From: an uncultured Bacteroidota bacterium
GTDB taxonomy: Bacteria; Bacteroidota; Bacteroidia; Chitinophagales; Chitinophagaceae
Direction: 5' to 3'
Assembly (NCBI GenBank): GCA_903824665.1
Contig: CAIJXT010000030.1
Span: forward strand, 62,001 to 126,000
Length of the DNA: 64,000 nt
Shown here in pieces: positions 50,715 through 58,691 of the stretch (position 1 is the first letter of the stretch; each line of letters starts with the position of its first letter). Both the position numbers and the translations under genes were made by a program. The notes under the pieces were generated by a model. It saw only the letters and a list, made by a program, of their open reading frames with translations, was not told the origin of the DNA and made no database searches.

Positions 50715-50772
50715 ACTTAACCCAAGCGTAAACTTGGCGTAACAATAAGATAATATTAGACCCGGACTTTTG
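50715..50772 (+). promoter_or_regulatory. Phased 11-bp repeat promoter (PhoB-like) before the TonB receptor
   Basis: TAA triplets stand at 50718, 50729, 50740 and 50751, exactly 11 bp apart, inside CTTAAC, CGTAAA, CGTAAC and GATAAT half-sites. GACTTTTG (50765-50772) follows as the -7 element, 14 bp after the last TAA. The same layout with the same 14-bp offset occurs before the beta-helix lipoprotein gene. Confidence 0.65.
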
Positions 50773-50788
50773 CATCAAAATTACATCG

Positions 50789-53566
50789 ATGCGAAGTATT
50801 GCACTTATTACATGTTTATTACTTTCTGTTTTCAACGTTTTTGCCGGCGGCAAGATCACCGGTAAAGTATCTGACGAAAAGAATGGCGAAACGATTATCG
50901 GAGCGGTAGTTGTTATAAAAGGTACAACTCAGGGTACTGTTACAGATATTGATGGCAATTTTGAATTGCCAGTTGATACCGGTACTTATACGATAGAGGT
51001 GAAATATGTGGGCTATGCCAACAAAGAGATCAGCGATGTAAAAGTAAATGCTAATAAAGAAACCATTCTTAGCATCACAATGGCTCAGGCAAAATCTACT
51101 GAGCTGGCAGAGGTAGTAGTAAAAACTTCCATGAAGAAGGAGAACATCAGCGCGATGATCGTGTACCAGAAGAATACTAACACGGTTGCGCAGGTGGTTT
51201 CTGCTGAAGCCATTCGCAAATCACCAGATAGAAACACAGGCGAGGTGCTCAAAAGAGTATCATCTGCTTCTGTGATCGACGGCAAGTATCTTGTAGTGCG
51301 TGGCCTTGCCGACAGATATAATCAGGCTACCCTGAACGGCACATTGCTTTCCAGTACAGAACCTGATCGTAAAACTTTCTCATTTGACCTGTTCCCGGCT
51401 GGAATGATCGACAATATCGTGGTCAACAAAGCTGCCACACCCGATCTTCCCGGTGAGTTTGCCGGTGGTCTTATCCAGGTGAACACACGTGATATCCCAT
51501 CAAAAAACTTTATGTCCTTTCAGGTAGGCACTGGTGCCAACATGCAGACAGTGGGCAAAGACTTTGCCTATAATAAAGGTGGCAACCTTGACTGGTTGGG
51601 TATCGACGACGGAACCCGTGCGCTACCATCTTCTGTACCCGACAAAGACGGTTTCAGGAAACTGACCACAGACCAGCGCTACGCGGTGGCCAAGACACTG
51701 AAAAACGACTGGAGCTATGAAACAAGATCCGGGTCGCCAAATGCCAATGTCCAGGCATCGGGTGGTGTGAATACCAAGATACTCAAAGGCAAAACATTTG
51801 GTGCCATAGTTGCTGTGACCTATAATAAGCAGAACAGGCGCTCAGAGTTTACACGTACTTTCTTCAATCAGGCTCAGGGAGTTGTAGAGAAAACACTGGA
51901 CTTTAAGGAAGAGTCTTATGGCCAGGAGGTTTTGTGGGGTGCACTTGCCAATATGACCCTGGAACTGAACAAGAACAGCAAAATATCATTCCGTAATATC
52001 TTCAACGTGAACGGCACAGACAATACTCTTGTGCGTACCGGTCGCAATAACGATTATGGTGGCGATGTGGCTGCCTACCAGTTGGCATTCAAGTCGGCAA
52101 AATTTGCAACTACTCAGTTGAACGGTAATCACTATCTCGAAAAATCAAAGGTAAAACTCAATTGGAATACAGGTTACACCCGCCTGCGCCAGGACCAGCC
52201 AAACCTGCGCCGTATGGAGTATCGTAAGTCTGATGACGATTCAGTATACCGCGCAGTTGTTCCCACTTACCTGCCTTCTTTGGCGTCTTCTAGTATTTTC
52301 TATTCAGACCTTACCGACAAAATTGCATTTGCAAGCGTTGATGCGGCCAAGCCTTTCGTGATGTTCGGGCAGAGCCAGACAATCAAGATCGGCTACATGG
52401 GACAAACCAAAAACCGCGAATTCAACTCGCGCCCTTTTGGAATGACTGGAGGTACACCGGAACTGCAATTGCTGCCCGCTGATCAGATTTTTGCTCAGGC
52501 CAATATCGGTACAGGTGGCTACAATTTTAGCGAGCTCAGCGATAAAGACTATGACTATACAGCATCTAGCCTCCTTAATGCTGGATTCCTGATGTTGGAC
52601 AATGCTTTCGGAGAGCGTTACAGACTGGTGTGGGGTGTTCGTTATGAAAATTTCAACCAGACACTGAATGGCTTCCGCAGCAACAAGCCCACAAATGTGG
52701 ACCGTAATGTAGGAGACTTCCTGCCTTCTATGAACTTCACGTACAAGCCTACCGAAAAAACCAACCTGCGTCTGTGTGCCTCGCAAACAGTTATCAGGCC
52801 TGAGTTCCGTGAACTTTCTCCTTTTGCTTTCTACGACTTTGAATTGCTTGCAGCAGTACAGGGTAACCCCGATCTGCAGCGCACAAAGATCACTAACCTG
52901 GATTTGCGGTATGAATTGTATCCCCGCAGTGGAGAGATGATTACTGCAGGTGTATTTTACAAACATTTCAATAATCCTATAGAGCAGTTTTACAATGAGT
53001 CTGGTATCAATACATTCTCTTTCACTTACAACAATGCGCCATCTGCAAAAAGTTATGGTGCTGAAGTGGAATTTCGCAAAAGGCTCGATGTGCTTTTCGG
53101 CGACGTGATGGCACCTTTTACAGCATTTGCAAATGCATCGTACATTTTCAACAATGTTGATTTTGATATCAAGACAAACACAGGGGAAACTGTAAAAGCT
53201 GACCGCCCAATGCAGGGACAGTCGCCTTACGTGATCAATAGTGGTCTTCAGTATGATGGTGAAAAGTCTGGAACCAGTGTTACATTGCTGTTCAACATGA
53301 TTGGACGCAGAATATTCCTGGTAGGCAACGAAACCAACCCAAGTATCTGGGAAGCACCAAGGCCATTATTCGACTTCCAGATTTCGCAGAAGATCCTTAA
53401 AGAACGTGGCGGTCTCAAGTTTACTATCACTGATCTGCTCAATCGCAAAGCCAACTTCTATCAGGATCGTAATGACAATGGCAAGTATGATATGTCCAAA
53501 GACTTTTTGCGCATTTCTAAATTGACCGGTACTACCCTTGCACTTTCTTTCGTGTACAATTTATAG
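50789..53566 (+). CDS. TonB-dependent outer membrane receptor
   Basis: 925 aa. Signal peptide to 'NVFAGG', then the carboxypeptidase-regulatory-like domain ('GKITGKVSDEKNGETIIGAVVVIKG', 'TDIDGNFELP'), a plug ('SPDRNTGEVLKRVSSASVIDGKYLVVRGL', 'NGTLLSS') and a barrel that ends 'SFVYNL'. This is the type of TonB receptor that pairs with a hypothetical lipoprotein in many Bacteroidota. It shares a phased 11-bp promoter repeat with the beta-helix lipoprotein gene downstream, which fits PhoB control and a phosphate or phosphoester ligand; that is inference. It has its own terminator. Confidence 0.94.
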   Translation: MRSIALITCLLLSVFNVFAGGKITGKVSDEKNGETIIGAVVVIKGTTQGTVTDIDGNFELPVDTGTYTIEVKYVGYANKEISDVKVNANKETILSITMAQAKSTELAEVVVKTSMKKENISAMIVYQKNTNTVAQVVSAEAIRKSPDRNTGEVLKRVSSASVIDGKYLVVRGLADRYNQATLNGTLLSSTEPDRKTFSFDLFPAGMIDNIVVNKAATPDLPGEFAGGLIQVNTRDIPSKNFMSFQVGTGANMQTVGKDFAYNKGGNLDWLGIDDGTRALPSSVPDKDGFRKLTTDQRYAVAKTLKNDWSYETRSGSPNANVQASGGVNTKILKGKTFGAIVAVTYNKQNRRSEFTRTFFNQAQGVVEKTLDFKEESYGQEVLWGALANMTLELNKNSKISFRNIFNVNGTDNTLVRTGRNNDYGGDVAAYQLAFKSAKFATTQLNGNHYLEKSKVKLNWNTGYTRLRQDQPNLRRMEYRKSDDDSVYRAVVPTYLPSLASSSIFYSDLTDKIAFASVDAAKPFVMFGQSQTIKIGYMGQTKNREFNSRPFGMTGGTPELQLLPADQIFAQANIGTGGYNFSELSDKDYDYTASSLLNAGFLMLDNAFGERYRLVWGVRYENFNQTLNGFRSNKPTNVDRNVGDFLPSMNFTYKPTEKTNLRLCASQTVIRPEFRELSPFAFYDFELLAAVQGNPDLQRTKITNLDLRYELYPRSGEMITAGVFYKHFNNPIEQFYNESGINTFSFTYNNAPSAKSYGAEVEFRKRLDVLFGDVMAPFTAFANASYIFNNVDFDIKTNTGETVKADRPMQGQSPYVINSGLQYDGEKSGTSVTLLFNMIGRRIFLVGNETNPSIWEAPRPLFDFQISQKILKERGGLKFTITDLLNRKANFYQDRNDNGKYDMSKDFLRISKLTGTTLALSFVYNL

Positions 53567-53586
53567 TACGTCATTTCACCATTGCA

Positions 53587-53622
53587 AAAGAGGTTGTATC
53601 CGTAAAAAGGTACAACCTCTTT
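53587..53622 (+). terminator. Terminator after the TonB receptor gene
   Basis: 12-bp perfect stem AAAGAGGTTGTA / TACAACCTCTTT with a 12-nt loop. It separates the receptor from the beta-helix lipoprotein gene, so the latter needs its own promoter. Confidence 0.85.
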
Positions 53623-53675
53623 CGCATTTATTTACAGGCTCAAAAAGCTAAAAATCGCGACAAAAGATAGCATTC

Positions 53676-53722
53676 AGTTAATGTGGCGGTAATATTGCGG
53701 TAACGTTGGAAGGCGAATTTTG
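53676..53722 (+). promoter_or_regulatory. Phased 11-bp repeat promoter (PhoB-like) before the beta-helix lipoprotein
   Basis: TAA triplets at 53679, 53690 and 53701 in GTTAAT, GGTAAT and GGTAAC half-sites, exactly 11 bp apart. GAATTTTG (53715-53722) follows 14 bp after the last TAA. Phase, half-site and offset equal those at 50715-50772. Confidence 0.65.
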
Positions 53723-53738: not shown

Positions 53739-55103
53739 ATGAAAAAAATCATTTTCGGCCTCACAGCATTATCAATTCTGGTAGCCGTATCCTGCAAAAA
53801 GAAAGACGACAATCCAACCCCAGTAACTCCGGTTGAAGATCCAAACGGGTATGTTTTGAATGCTGATATCACAGCTGATAGGACATTGCTCGCAGGCAAG
53901 ACATACACTATGTCTAGCATGGTATATGTAAAAACCGGCGTAACACTTACAATTCAGCCAGGCGTTACCATCAAGGCTGCTAAAGGCAAGAACGCACTTG
54001 TTGTAACAAGAGGCGGAAAGATTATGGCAGTAGGCAAAGTAGATAGTCCGATTGTATTCACTTCTGCTGAGACAGCACCTACATACGGTGATTGGGGTGG
54101 TATAGTAATATTGGGTAGGGCTACAACAAACGCCTCTTTTAACAGCGTACCGGGTCAGGGCGAAATTGAAGGTGGTGTGAATAACACAGCCGGAGACGGT
54201 ATTTATGGTGGTACAGACGACAACGATAATTCTGGAAAGCTGAAGTATGTACGTATCGAGTACGGTGGCTATCCTTTCCAGCCTGATAAAGAGTTGAACT
54301 CTCTTACAATGGGTGCCGTAGGTCGTGGTACTGAGATCGACTATGTAGAGTGTGCTTATGGTTACGACGATGCGTTTGAGTGGTTTGGTGGTACTGTAAA
54401 TTGCAAACACCTTATTGCTTACAAAACACTCGATGATAACTTCGATTGTGATTTCGGTTTCCGTGGCAGCGTTCAGTTCGCTCTTTCAATTGTTGATAAA
54501 GACCAGGCAGACGTTTCAGGTAGCAACGGTTTTGAAGTAGACAATGACGGTTCAGGTTCTACAAACACACCGATCACTGCGCCTATCTTCGCTAACGTTA
54601 CAATTATCGGACCAAAAGAAACATCAACAACAACAATCAATTCAAATTTCAAACGTGCGGCTCATCTTCGCAGGAATTCAAAACACTCCATCCTGAATAG
54701 TGTACTCGTTGGTTACCCAACTGGTATCCTGATCGACGGTTCTAAGTGTGGTGCTAACATCCTTGCTGGCGATATCGAACTGAAAGGTGTTGTGGTTGCC
54801 GGTTGCACAAAAGCATTCGATACTGTAGGTACTTCTTCTACAACATTGGGTTCTCTGACTACTTTCCTGACCACTACAAATCCAACATGGAGCAACGAAT
54901 CTAAAGCAACTTCTGCAGAAGCTGGTCTTACAGCACCTTTCGCAGCAGCAGCTTCTTTCGATCCTAATCCTGCAGCTGGTTCTGTTCTTACAGCAGGTGC
55001 TGCAACAAGCACTAAGCTCGGTGGCGGTTTCTTCACTACAACTACTTACCGTGGTGCATGCGCAGTAGGTGATACTTGGTGGAAGACCTGGAGCAAATTC
55101 TAA
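53739..55103 (+). CDS. Beta-helix lipoprotein linked to the TonB receptor
   Basis: 454 aa. Lipobox 'VAVSC' followed by 'KKKDDNPTPVTPVEDP', a typical surface-lipoprotein linker. From about residue 60 on, regular short strands ('LTIQPGVTIKAAKGKNALVVTRGGKIMAVG', 'PIVFTSAE', 'DWGGIVILG') suggest a right-handed parallel beta-helix. 'AYGYDDAFEWFGGTVNCKHLIAYKTLDDNFDCDFG' is a striking acidic and aromatic block of the family. No enzymatic motif is known to me. Its regulation matches the TonB receptor upstream, so it may be a surface ligand-binding partner. Confidence 0.82.
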   Translation: MKKIIFGLTALSILVAVSCKKKDDNPTPVTPVEDPNGYVLNADITADRTLLAGKTYTMSSMVYVKTGVTLTIQPGVTIKAAKGKNALVVTRGGKIMAVGKVDSPIVFTSAETAPTYGDWGGIVILGRATTNASFNSVPGQGEIEGGVNNTAGDGIYGGTDDNDNSGKLKYVRIEYGGYPFQPDKELNSLTMGAVGRGTEIDYVECAYGYDDAFEWFGGTVNCKHLIAYKTLDDNFDCDFGFRGSVQFALSIVDKDQADVSGSNGFEVDNDGSGSTNTPITAPIFANVTIIGPKETSTTTINSNFKRAAHLRRNSKHSILNSVLVGYPTGILIDGSKCGANILAGDIELKGVVVAGCTKAFDTVGTSSTTLGSLTTFLTTTNPTWSNESKATSAEAGLTAPFAAAASFDPNPAAGSVLTAGAATSTKLGGGFFTTTTYRGACAVGDTWWKTWSKF

Positions 55104-56720: not shown

Positions 56721-58691
56721 ATGAGGTATTTGTTTTTTGTGTTGTGTTGGCTCGCTTTGCCCTTTTTAGCCGGAGCGCAAGAGCATTATGTTGATTTTGC
56801 TACTAAACTGAGTAAGGCAAAAAATGATTCGGAGAAAGCATTTATTTACAAGGATGCGCTTATCCATTATTACCGCGATAATTCAGATACTTTCAAATTC
56901 TATGCCGACGAGGCAATTGCATATTTCAGAAAGAAAAATTATAGTCTTGGAGAGGGAATCATAGTGGCACAACTCGGGCTCACAGATCGTGCCGAAGGAC
57001 GTGTGCTTGTTGCGTTGAAGCGATTTCATTATGCATTGGATATTTTCAGAAAAGAGCATTACACCCGGGGCATGGCCGACTTGCTGGGTAATATTGGTGG
57101 TCTGGAAGCTGGTCGCGGAAACATCGATGTTGCTGCAAAATACATTACCGAGTCGCTGAGGATGCAAGAGGCGCTGGGAAACCGGTCTGGTTTGGTAATC
57201 GGGTACATGAATCTGGGCAGCATGTACCTGCAGCAGAACGACACGGCAAATGCGGCGCTGTTTCTCAATAAGGCTTCTTTGATCAGCAGGGAGCTGCCCC
57301 TGACAGTACAGATAATTGGCCTTTACAATATGGTTGGTGTGCTATATGCAATGAAGGGCGACAATGAAAAAGCACTGGATTGTTTTCTAAACAATCTTGA
57401 ATTGAGCAATAAGTATGAGCTGTTGCCGGCACAGGTTGAGTGCATCTCTTATATTGCCGAGTATTACCAGCAAAATGGTAATCCGGAAAAGGCATTTCAA
57501 TATTTGCGCGATGGGTTGAAACTCACTACAGAGCACAACCTCGCGGAGATGAAATCGAATATGCTTTTGACAATGGCATCACTGCTTCAGGAAAAGGACC
57601 CTGAATCGGCAGTACAATATATGAATGAAGCGCTGGAGATCGGCAAACAGATGGATAACAAATCGTTTATGGCTACTGTATATGACAATCAGGCAGCTAT
57701 CTACAAAAAACTCGGCAAATTCAAAGAAGCATTGTTTGCCACCGAGTTGAAGAACCGGATTACAGACAGCATTTTCAGCATCCGCAAAAGCAAAGAGCTG
57801 GCAAGTATATCGTCTGCTTACGAACTCGAAAAGTCGATTGAAAAAGTGAATGAGCTGCAGCGCGAAAATTCAAGGAATGAAAGGCAACGAAATGTATTGC
57901 TGGTGATCGCTATCGGTGTAATATTGCTGCTGGCAACACTTTGGAGCTTCTACCGGAAAACAATATTGTTGAATCGCCAGTTGGCTGCACATCAGGCCGA
58001 AATGAGCGAGTTGAATACCATGAAGGATAAGTTGTTTTCAATCATCGGTCACGATCTCAGGGGGCCGTTGGCCCGAATTCCCACAATTCTGGATATATAT
58101 GAGGATCCTACGACCGACGCTACAGAGAAAAAATACCTGCTCGATAGTCTTAGGGAGCATACCAGTGCATCAATGGATATGTTGGAGAAGTTATTGTTTT
58201 GGGGGCAGGCGTTGGTTAAGGGCGTGAAAATGATAGAACAGAAGGTCGCAATCAAAACAGTGGTTGCTGATAATGTAGAGTTGTACACACAGGCTGTTGC
58301 TGAAAAAAATATAGTTGTCAGGAATAATGTCAAAGACGGTTCCTATGTATTTGCAGACACAAAACATTTTGACTTTATCGTTCGCAATTTGTTACACAAC
58401 GCTATTAAATACTCACATACTGGCGGTGTAATAACGCTGGATACTGACGAAAGCAGCAGGAAAGGATATATAATTCTCGCATTCAAGGATACCGGTACCG
58501 GCATTTCGCCCGAATTGCTGAAAGGAATTTTCAATCCATCTTCCAGTACACCGGGTACCGCCAATGAAAGAGGTACCGGCATTGGTTTGATGCTCTGTAA
58601 AGAATTTGCAATACTCAATGGGGGAGACATCTGGGCAGACAGTATTCCCGGAAAAGGATCTACGTTTTATCTATCACTGCGAAATATGTAA
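56721..58691 (+). CDS. TPR-containing membrane sensor histidine kinase
   Basis: 656 aa. Signal peptide to 'AGAQEH'. About six TPR units in residues 60-345 ('GRVLVALKRFHYALDIFRKE', 'NIDVAAKYITESLRMQEALGN', 'KALDCFLNNLELSNKYELL') form a periplasmic sensor, then a coiled coil and one membrane span ('NVLLVIAIGVILLLATLWSF', about 390-412). HisKA has the phospho-His in 'FSIIGHDLRGPL', and the ATPase has 'VRNLLHNAIKYS', 'FKDTGTGI' and 'ERGTGIGLMLCKEF'. No response regulator gene is adjacent (orphan). Signal unknown. Confidence 0.93.
   Translation: MRYLFFVLCWLALPFLAGAQEHYVDFATKLSKAKNDSEKAFIYKDALIHYYRDNSDTFKFYADEAIAYFRKKNYSLGEGIIVAQLGLTDRAEGRVLVALKRFHYALDIFRKEHYTRGMADLLGNIGGLEAGRGNIDVAAKYITESLRMQEALGNRSGLVIGYMNLGSMYLQQNDTANAALFLNKASLISRELPLTVQIIGLYNMVGVLYAMKGDNEKALDCFLNNLELSNKYELLPAQVECISYIAEYYQQNGNPEKAFQYLRDGLKLTTEHNLAEMKSNMLLTMASLLQEKDPESAVQYMNEALEIGKQMDNKSFMATVYDNQAAIYKKLGKFKEALFATELKNRITDSIFSIRKSKELASISSAYELEKSIEKVNELQRENSRNERQRNVLLVIAIGVILLLATLWSFYRKTILLNRQLAAHQAEMSELNTMKDKLFSIIGHDLRGPLARIPTILDIYEDPTTDATEKKYLLDSLREHTSASMDMLEKLLFWGQALVKGVKMIEQKVAIKTVVADNVELYTQAVAEKNIVVRNNVKDGSYVFADTKHFDFIVRNLLHNAIKYSHTGGVITLDTDESSRKGYIILAFKDTGTGISPELLKGIFNPSSSTPGTANERGTGIGLMLCKEFAILNGGDIWADSIPGKGSTFYLSLRNM

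Follow-up and report, generated by a model that had tools for sequence, protein, structure and literature searches.

The DNA analysed here, hereafter the window, is a stretch of 64,000 nucleotides from the 4.73-Mb draft genome of a Bacteroidota organism (the host), and it carries on its forward strand two adjacent genes for a TonB receptor and a predicted beta-helix lipoprotein, with a promoter box in front of each. The first gene (50789 to 53566) encodes a TonB-dependent receptor of 925 amino acids, which combines a carboxypeptidase-regulatory-like domain with a plug (Pfam PF13715, PF07715, PF00593, and PF14905) and resembles TIGR01782 (TonB-Xanth-Caul), with a score of 197 bits that lies under the cut-off of 310. 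The second gene (53739 to 55103) encodes a surface lipoprotein of 454 amino acids with a signal peptide and a lipobox (...VAVSC), for which AlphaFold2 predicts a right-handed parallel beta-helix with a strand ladder (pLDDT 84, pTM 0.86). The best structural neighbors of this model in the PDB are weak (E 6e-3 at best); they include pectate lyases, alginate lyases, and other enzymes with a parallel beta-helix, as well as tailspikes. No family in Pfam or NCBIfam matches the protein. Between the two genes lies an intrinsic-terminator-like hairpin on the same strand (53587 to 53622), the 14-bp stem and folding energy of which (-24.9 kcal/mol, z -7.1) support the terminator that the initial annotation had placed there. 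In the vicinity of the pair, at 56721 to 58691, there is also a sensor kinase with TPR repeats, which is FimS-like and does not score as PhoR.

Both promoters, again on the forward strand, contain tandem direct repeats with a period of 11 bp. The ladder preceding the receptor (50718 to 50758) is formed by the half-sites TAACCCA, TAAACTT, TAACAAT, and TAATATT at 50718, 50729, 50740, and 50751, while that preceding the lipoprotein (53668 to 53708) has TAATGTG, TAATATT, and TAACGTT at 53679, 53690, and 53701; since the degenerate half-site TAGCATT at 53668 adds one more step to the downstream promoter, both ladders have four. Each is followed by a -7 element, GACTTTTG (50765 to 50772) and GAATTTTG (53715 to 53722), respectively, which starts 14 bp past the beginning of the last TAA and has its TTTG 18 bp after the same point. 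Both elements agree with TAnnTTTG, the element of the primary sigma factor of Bacteroidota (consensus as quoted in PMC7366714), with G replacing the first T. Direct reading therefore bears out the 11-bp steps and the phased GA-nTTTTG element that had been described for this DNA; the repeats had also been called identical, which holds for their spacing and phase but not for their full sequence. Three TAA at 11 bp combined with GAnTTTTG match twice in the window and never in 100 dinucleotide shuffles of it, and the TAA triple alone occurs four times for 0.72 expected. A matrix was built from 60 boxes of genomes other than the host; in the null set of 305,398 positions its highest score is 6.2 bits. 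It gives the two ladders 56.6 and 50.6 bits, scores that are inflated because orthologous promoters belong to the training set. In relatives, the first ladder is kept upstream of the receptor gene and the second upstream of the lipoprotein gene.

Statements on the whole host genome rest on pattern searches. The loose pattern of two TAA steps plus TTTG has 17 matches as against 25 in the reversed control, as might be expected if periodic TAA were a general trait of AT-rich Bacteroidota promoters, or the product of chance, with no dedicated regulator behind it. Because this pattern is unenriched, only the phased three-step form or the matrix score was used thereafter. Perfect three-step boxes number five, where base composition predicts about 0.3 by our own estimate: the two window promoters, the pstSCAB operon (C12), a paralogous T9SS-tailed gene of the lipoprotein family (C15), and a Usp-like gene (C13), the last of which scores only 10.4 bits with the matrix and is probably a chance match. 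The operon on C12 is the only pstSCAB of the host, with a pstB above cut-off, and has three TAA plus TTTG upstream, the matrix score at pstS being 26.5 bits. The matrix also detects a paralogous receptor (26.3 bits), a paralogous lipoprotein (36.2 bits), two genes for secreted proteins on C34 (29.3 and 25.0 bits), a phytase/PhoX-like gene with PF13449 and PF05787 (26.5 bits), and its divergent MauG-like neighbor (31.0 bits). In this divergent arrangement (C4 of G000; L205:2746-2950) the promoters of the MauG-like di-haem peroxidase and of the phytase/PhoX-like protein are both boxed, the -7 element of the former reading TTTC instead of TTTG. Extracellular nucleases are typical low-phosphate genes; an Endonuclease_NS gene of the host (C34; L024:2089-3582) lies between two weak sites, any box of its own being no more than putative, and one relative of the same genus (L329) has a boxed gene for a secreted DNA/RNA non-specific endonuclease (PF01223). 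Whether pst and phosphatase genes carry the motif had been raised as a check on the initial annotation: it was found at the host pstS and at the phytase/PhoX-like and MauG-like pair, and likewise at the pst operons of many relatives, at one strict phase and strand.

The latter result comes from counting, in relatives of the host, every TTTG with TAA located 18, 29, 40, and 51 bp upstream, with 11 other phases serving as control. For pst, regions of 4.8 kb were used, since the 1.5-kb flanks of pstC matches stop short of the pstS promoters. Among 59 such upstream regions from order-level relatives there are 44 boxes with at least two TAA, as opposed to 3-10 at the 11 other phases, and 22 with at least three TAA, as opposed to 0-1; the reverse strand yields 7 and 2, respectively. 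When the count is made by region, a box of at least two TAA is present in 33/59 (vs. 3-10) and one of at least three in 17/59 (vs. 0-1), the other 26 regions having no box of at least two steps inside the sequence stretch retrieved. The 41 receptor/lipoprotein regions contain 57 boxes with at least two TAA (1-12 at the other phases) and 41 with at least three (0-2); a box lies within 600 bp of the lipoprotein in 32 of 40 regions and in the promoter zone of the receptor in 21 of 38. Class-level loci (L249-L311) show the same contrast, with 61 boxes of at least three TAA versus 0-5 at other phases, and the three-step pattern across the genus amounts to 118 sites versus 31 in the control. Because the sampled genomes are related, box counts from them are not independent observations; comparing phases guards against this, as kinship affects all of them equally. 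PstS-like paralogues of the 'DETYRP' kind have no triple ladder upstream; they were dropped as pst markers and kept as a negative comparison. The only genome of the same genus, besides the host, with a clear pstS orthologue (G017:C95, L061; 56% identity) has no clean box at pstS. Set against the unenriched two-step pattern, the confinement of the three-step enrichment to one phase and one strand, the genus total, the bare 'DETYRP' paralogues, and the failure to see equal enrichment at other phases or at random promoters when it was looked for make a general promoter trait or chance an exceedingly improbable origin of the ladders.

From 63 distinct three-step boxes we derived a consensus of (T/G)TAACATTnnn repeats followed by the -7 element TAcTTTTGCA. 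The TAA and TTTG columns of this consensus were selection criteria and the others were not, and among the unselected columns conservation is found for A at -3 (83%), C at +4 (83%), and C/T at -15 (95%), as well as for C/T following TAA and then ATT.

Boxes are present also at genes of other kinds. At four loci of the same genus (L315, L335, L339, and L340) strong boxes precede genes for secreted proteins starting with ...HYWNFN.., for which one T9SS tail was found, and in some genomes these boxes adjoin a second, divergent box. At four others (L317, L331, L332, and L338) near-perfect boxes precede genes for porin-like proteins of about 450 residues, for which neither Pfam nor NCBIfam nor the PDB sequences offer a convincing match. 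These proteins may perhaps constitute an unrecognised low-phosphate porin, a claim that we do not make given the lack of a convincing family match. A further case is L250:7607 (reverse-complement orientation): immediately after the receptor/lipoprotein pair comes a gene for another large outer-membrane beta-barrel (PF25183), and a third box stands before it.

Such a spread of targets bears on the question of which regulator reads the box. Direct repeats spaced at 11 bp characterise the OmpR/PhoB family as a whole, and the ladders might thus be operators of another member of the family, for instance one dealing with envelope stress or surface polymers, which also touches pst without being specific for phosphate. 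Boxes at the porin-like genes of the genus and at a T9SS-sorted secreted protein of the host (C34b) would fit this alternative, as would the scores of the best regulator candidate of the host. This regulator, on C3, has the PhoB models TIGR02154 and NF053854 as its best two of 102 families, but remains under both curated cut-offs (209.6 of 296.2 bits and 203.5 of 270 bits, respectively) and is therefore named PhoB-like, not PhoB. Its partner kinase is the genome's best match to NF053855, with a PhoR score of 183 of 500, under the cut-off. Judging from these matches, the C3 pair is likely to represent the PhoB and PhoR of the host, and the candidate phoB promoter has a partial site with two TAA steps and without phased TTTG.

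A PhoB or PhoR homologue occurs within flanks of up to 10 kb per side in 18/63 class-level loci, and in several relatives (L253, L288, and L289) the receptor/lipoprotein pair lies beside phoBR. The strongest case that gene context offers is L289 (JAEUTF010000181.1, 4889-15841), which groups phoR-phoB, the receptor, the lipoprotein, and pstS-pstC-pstA-pstB-phoU in a single cluster where three promoters are boxed, one facing phoB, one facing the receptor, and one between the lipoprotein and pstS; on the face of its sequence, this locus would make a compact model of the regulon. Boxed phoB promoters are found in L288, L289, L290, L294, L295, and L299. In L260, moreover, a four-step box lies upstream of a PF12850 metallophosphoesterase, a member of the Pfam family to which PlcP, induced at low phosphate in Flavobacterium johnsoniae, is reported to belong (PMC8115612). 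Considering the recurrence of the box at pst operons in many families, its position before phoB, receptor, and pstSCAB-phoU in L289, its presence at phytase/PhoX-like and MauG-like genes, and the two PhoB models heading the matches of the C3 regulator, control by another, phosphate-unspecific member of the family appears improbable.

The best explanation is that a PhoBR system of Bacteroidota uses the ladders as its PHO boxes, by which the receptor and the lipoprotein would be induced together with pstSCAB and would most likely form a unit for phosphorus capture or import; on the available sequences we consider this reading very probable. What is observed is the boxes themselves, fixed in phase and strand, located at pst and further genes of Pho type, and conserved across the class. 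We infer that PhoB is the binder, that activation takes place at low phosphate, and that the pair has a role in transport. At low phosphate, phosphorylated PhoB, a winged-helix regulator of the OmpR/PhoB family, would occupy successive 11-bp half-sites (T/G)TAACATTnnn in head-to-tail order. These half-sites precede the -7 TTTG by 18, 29, 40, and 51 bp and would lie on one face of the helix. With half-sites at these distances the array would span the -33 region and recruit RNA polymerase with its primary sigma factor, and the constant phase of the ladders suggests contact with the polymerase. The receptor and the lipoprotein would be separate transcripts divided by the terminator, and because each has its own box they would be co-induced with pstSCAB and with secreted genes of phosphatase or nuclease type. 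The PhoB-like regulon proposed in the initial annotation appears largely right, given the ladder at pst, phytase/PhoX-like, and MauG-like genes and in the L289 cluster, and its suggestion of co-regulation through duplicated operators gains support from the same ladder at the receptor, lipoprotein, and pstSCAB promoters, with the terminator between the genes.

What, then, would the pair do? The boxes could be genuine PHO boxes while receptor and lipoprotein serve something other than phosphorus uptake, such as polymer binding, adhesion, or enzyme secretion. Beta-helix folds resemble those of polysaccharide lyases and adhesins, and ElpS of Caulobacter is tied to phosphatase activity without being a proven importer (PMC2996285; PMC8115612). 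However, TonB receptors are transporters by family, and joint regulation with pst and phosphatases suggests that phosphorus is what is gained, so that a function outside uptake is possible but, on balance, somewhat doubtful. The pair would most likely accomplish the outer-membrane capture and import of phosphate or of a phosphorus-containing compound.

PHO boxes as such are already known, and so is the induction at low phosphate of pairs of the receptor/lipoprotein type. Phosphate regulation in Bacteroidota has so far been known through expression studies in F. johnsoniae and Bacteroides fragilis, and no published PHO-box sequence for the phylum was found in the open-access papers searched. 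The broader proposition is that (T/G)TAACATTnnn in four steps plus TAnnTTTGCA, at fixed phase, represents a class-wide Bacteroidota PHO box and marks the receptor and beta-helix lipoprotein, present together in most sampled Bacteroidia genomes, as a core outer-membrane system for phosphorus capture that is not of SusCD type; we regard the chances of this proposition as evenly balanced. If true, the phosphorus regulon could be read directly from sequence: a defined box at fixed promoter phase would list the phosphorus-scavenging genes of any Bacteroidota genome, including many without pst. A very widespread and uncharacterised family of surface lipoproteins, with homologues in 204/246 class-level genomes and a receptor gene directly upstream in most loci read, would now be tied to phosphate starvation.

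In comparison with known systems, the box is similar to those of Escherichia coli PhoB, Bacillus subtilis PhoP, and cyanobacterial SphR in having 11-bp head-to-tail repeats immediately upstream of the -10 or -7 element at pst and phosphatase genes; dimers of the PhoB family bind 11-bp repeats head to tail (PMC4415409), and the E. coli PHO box lies just upstream of -10 (PMC1906773). In sequence, the half-site described here comes close to the SphR repeats, CTTAACCT separated by 3-bp linkers. The present box differs from all of these in its half-site (T/G)TAACATT, in its usual three or four steps, and in its fixed phase to the Bacteroidota TAnnTTTG element rather than to TATAAT. Among Bacteroidota, pstC expression depends on PhoB in B. 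fragilis (PMC3547664), and F. johnsoniae strongly induces at low phosphate PhoX (Fjoh_2478), a MauG-like protein (Fjoh_2477), and the receptor Fjoh_0545 with the lipoprotein Fjoh_0546, which are beside phoBR (PMC8115612). Like this PUSIV locus (Fjoh_0543-0546: PhoR, PhoB, TonB receptor, and lipoprotein FII), the host has a receptor with plug, CarboxypepD-like, and OMP_b-brl_3 domains followed, in the same gene order, by a beta-helix-like lipoprotein without Pfam family; unlike PUSIV, the host pair is located apart from phoBR (C30 vs. C3), and its two genes have separate boxed promoters. In Caulobacter crescentus, too, elpS (cc0170) adjoins the TonB receptor gene cc0171, and phosphate-starved cells produce ElpS (PMC2996285). 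Adjacent genes for a TonB receptor and a surface lipoprotein are thus common to both organisms, whereas cc0171 is reported as constitutive and the elpS/cc0171 pair is tied to a type II secretion cluster. The parallels with F. johnsoniae, B. fragilis, and Caulobacter are analogies drawn from family membership, domain make-up, and the order of genes.
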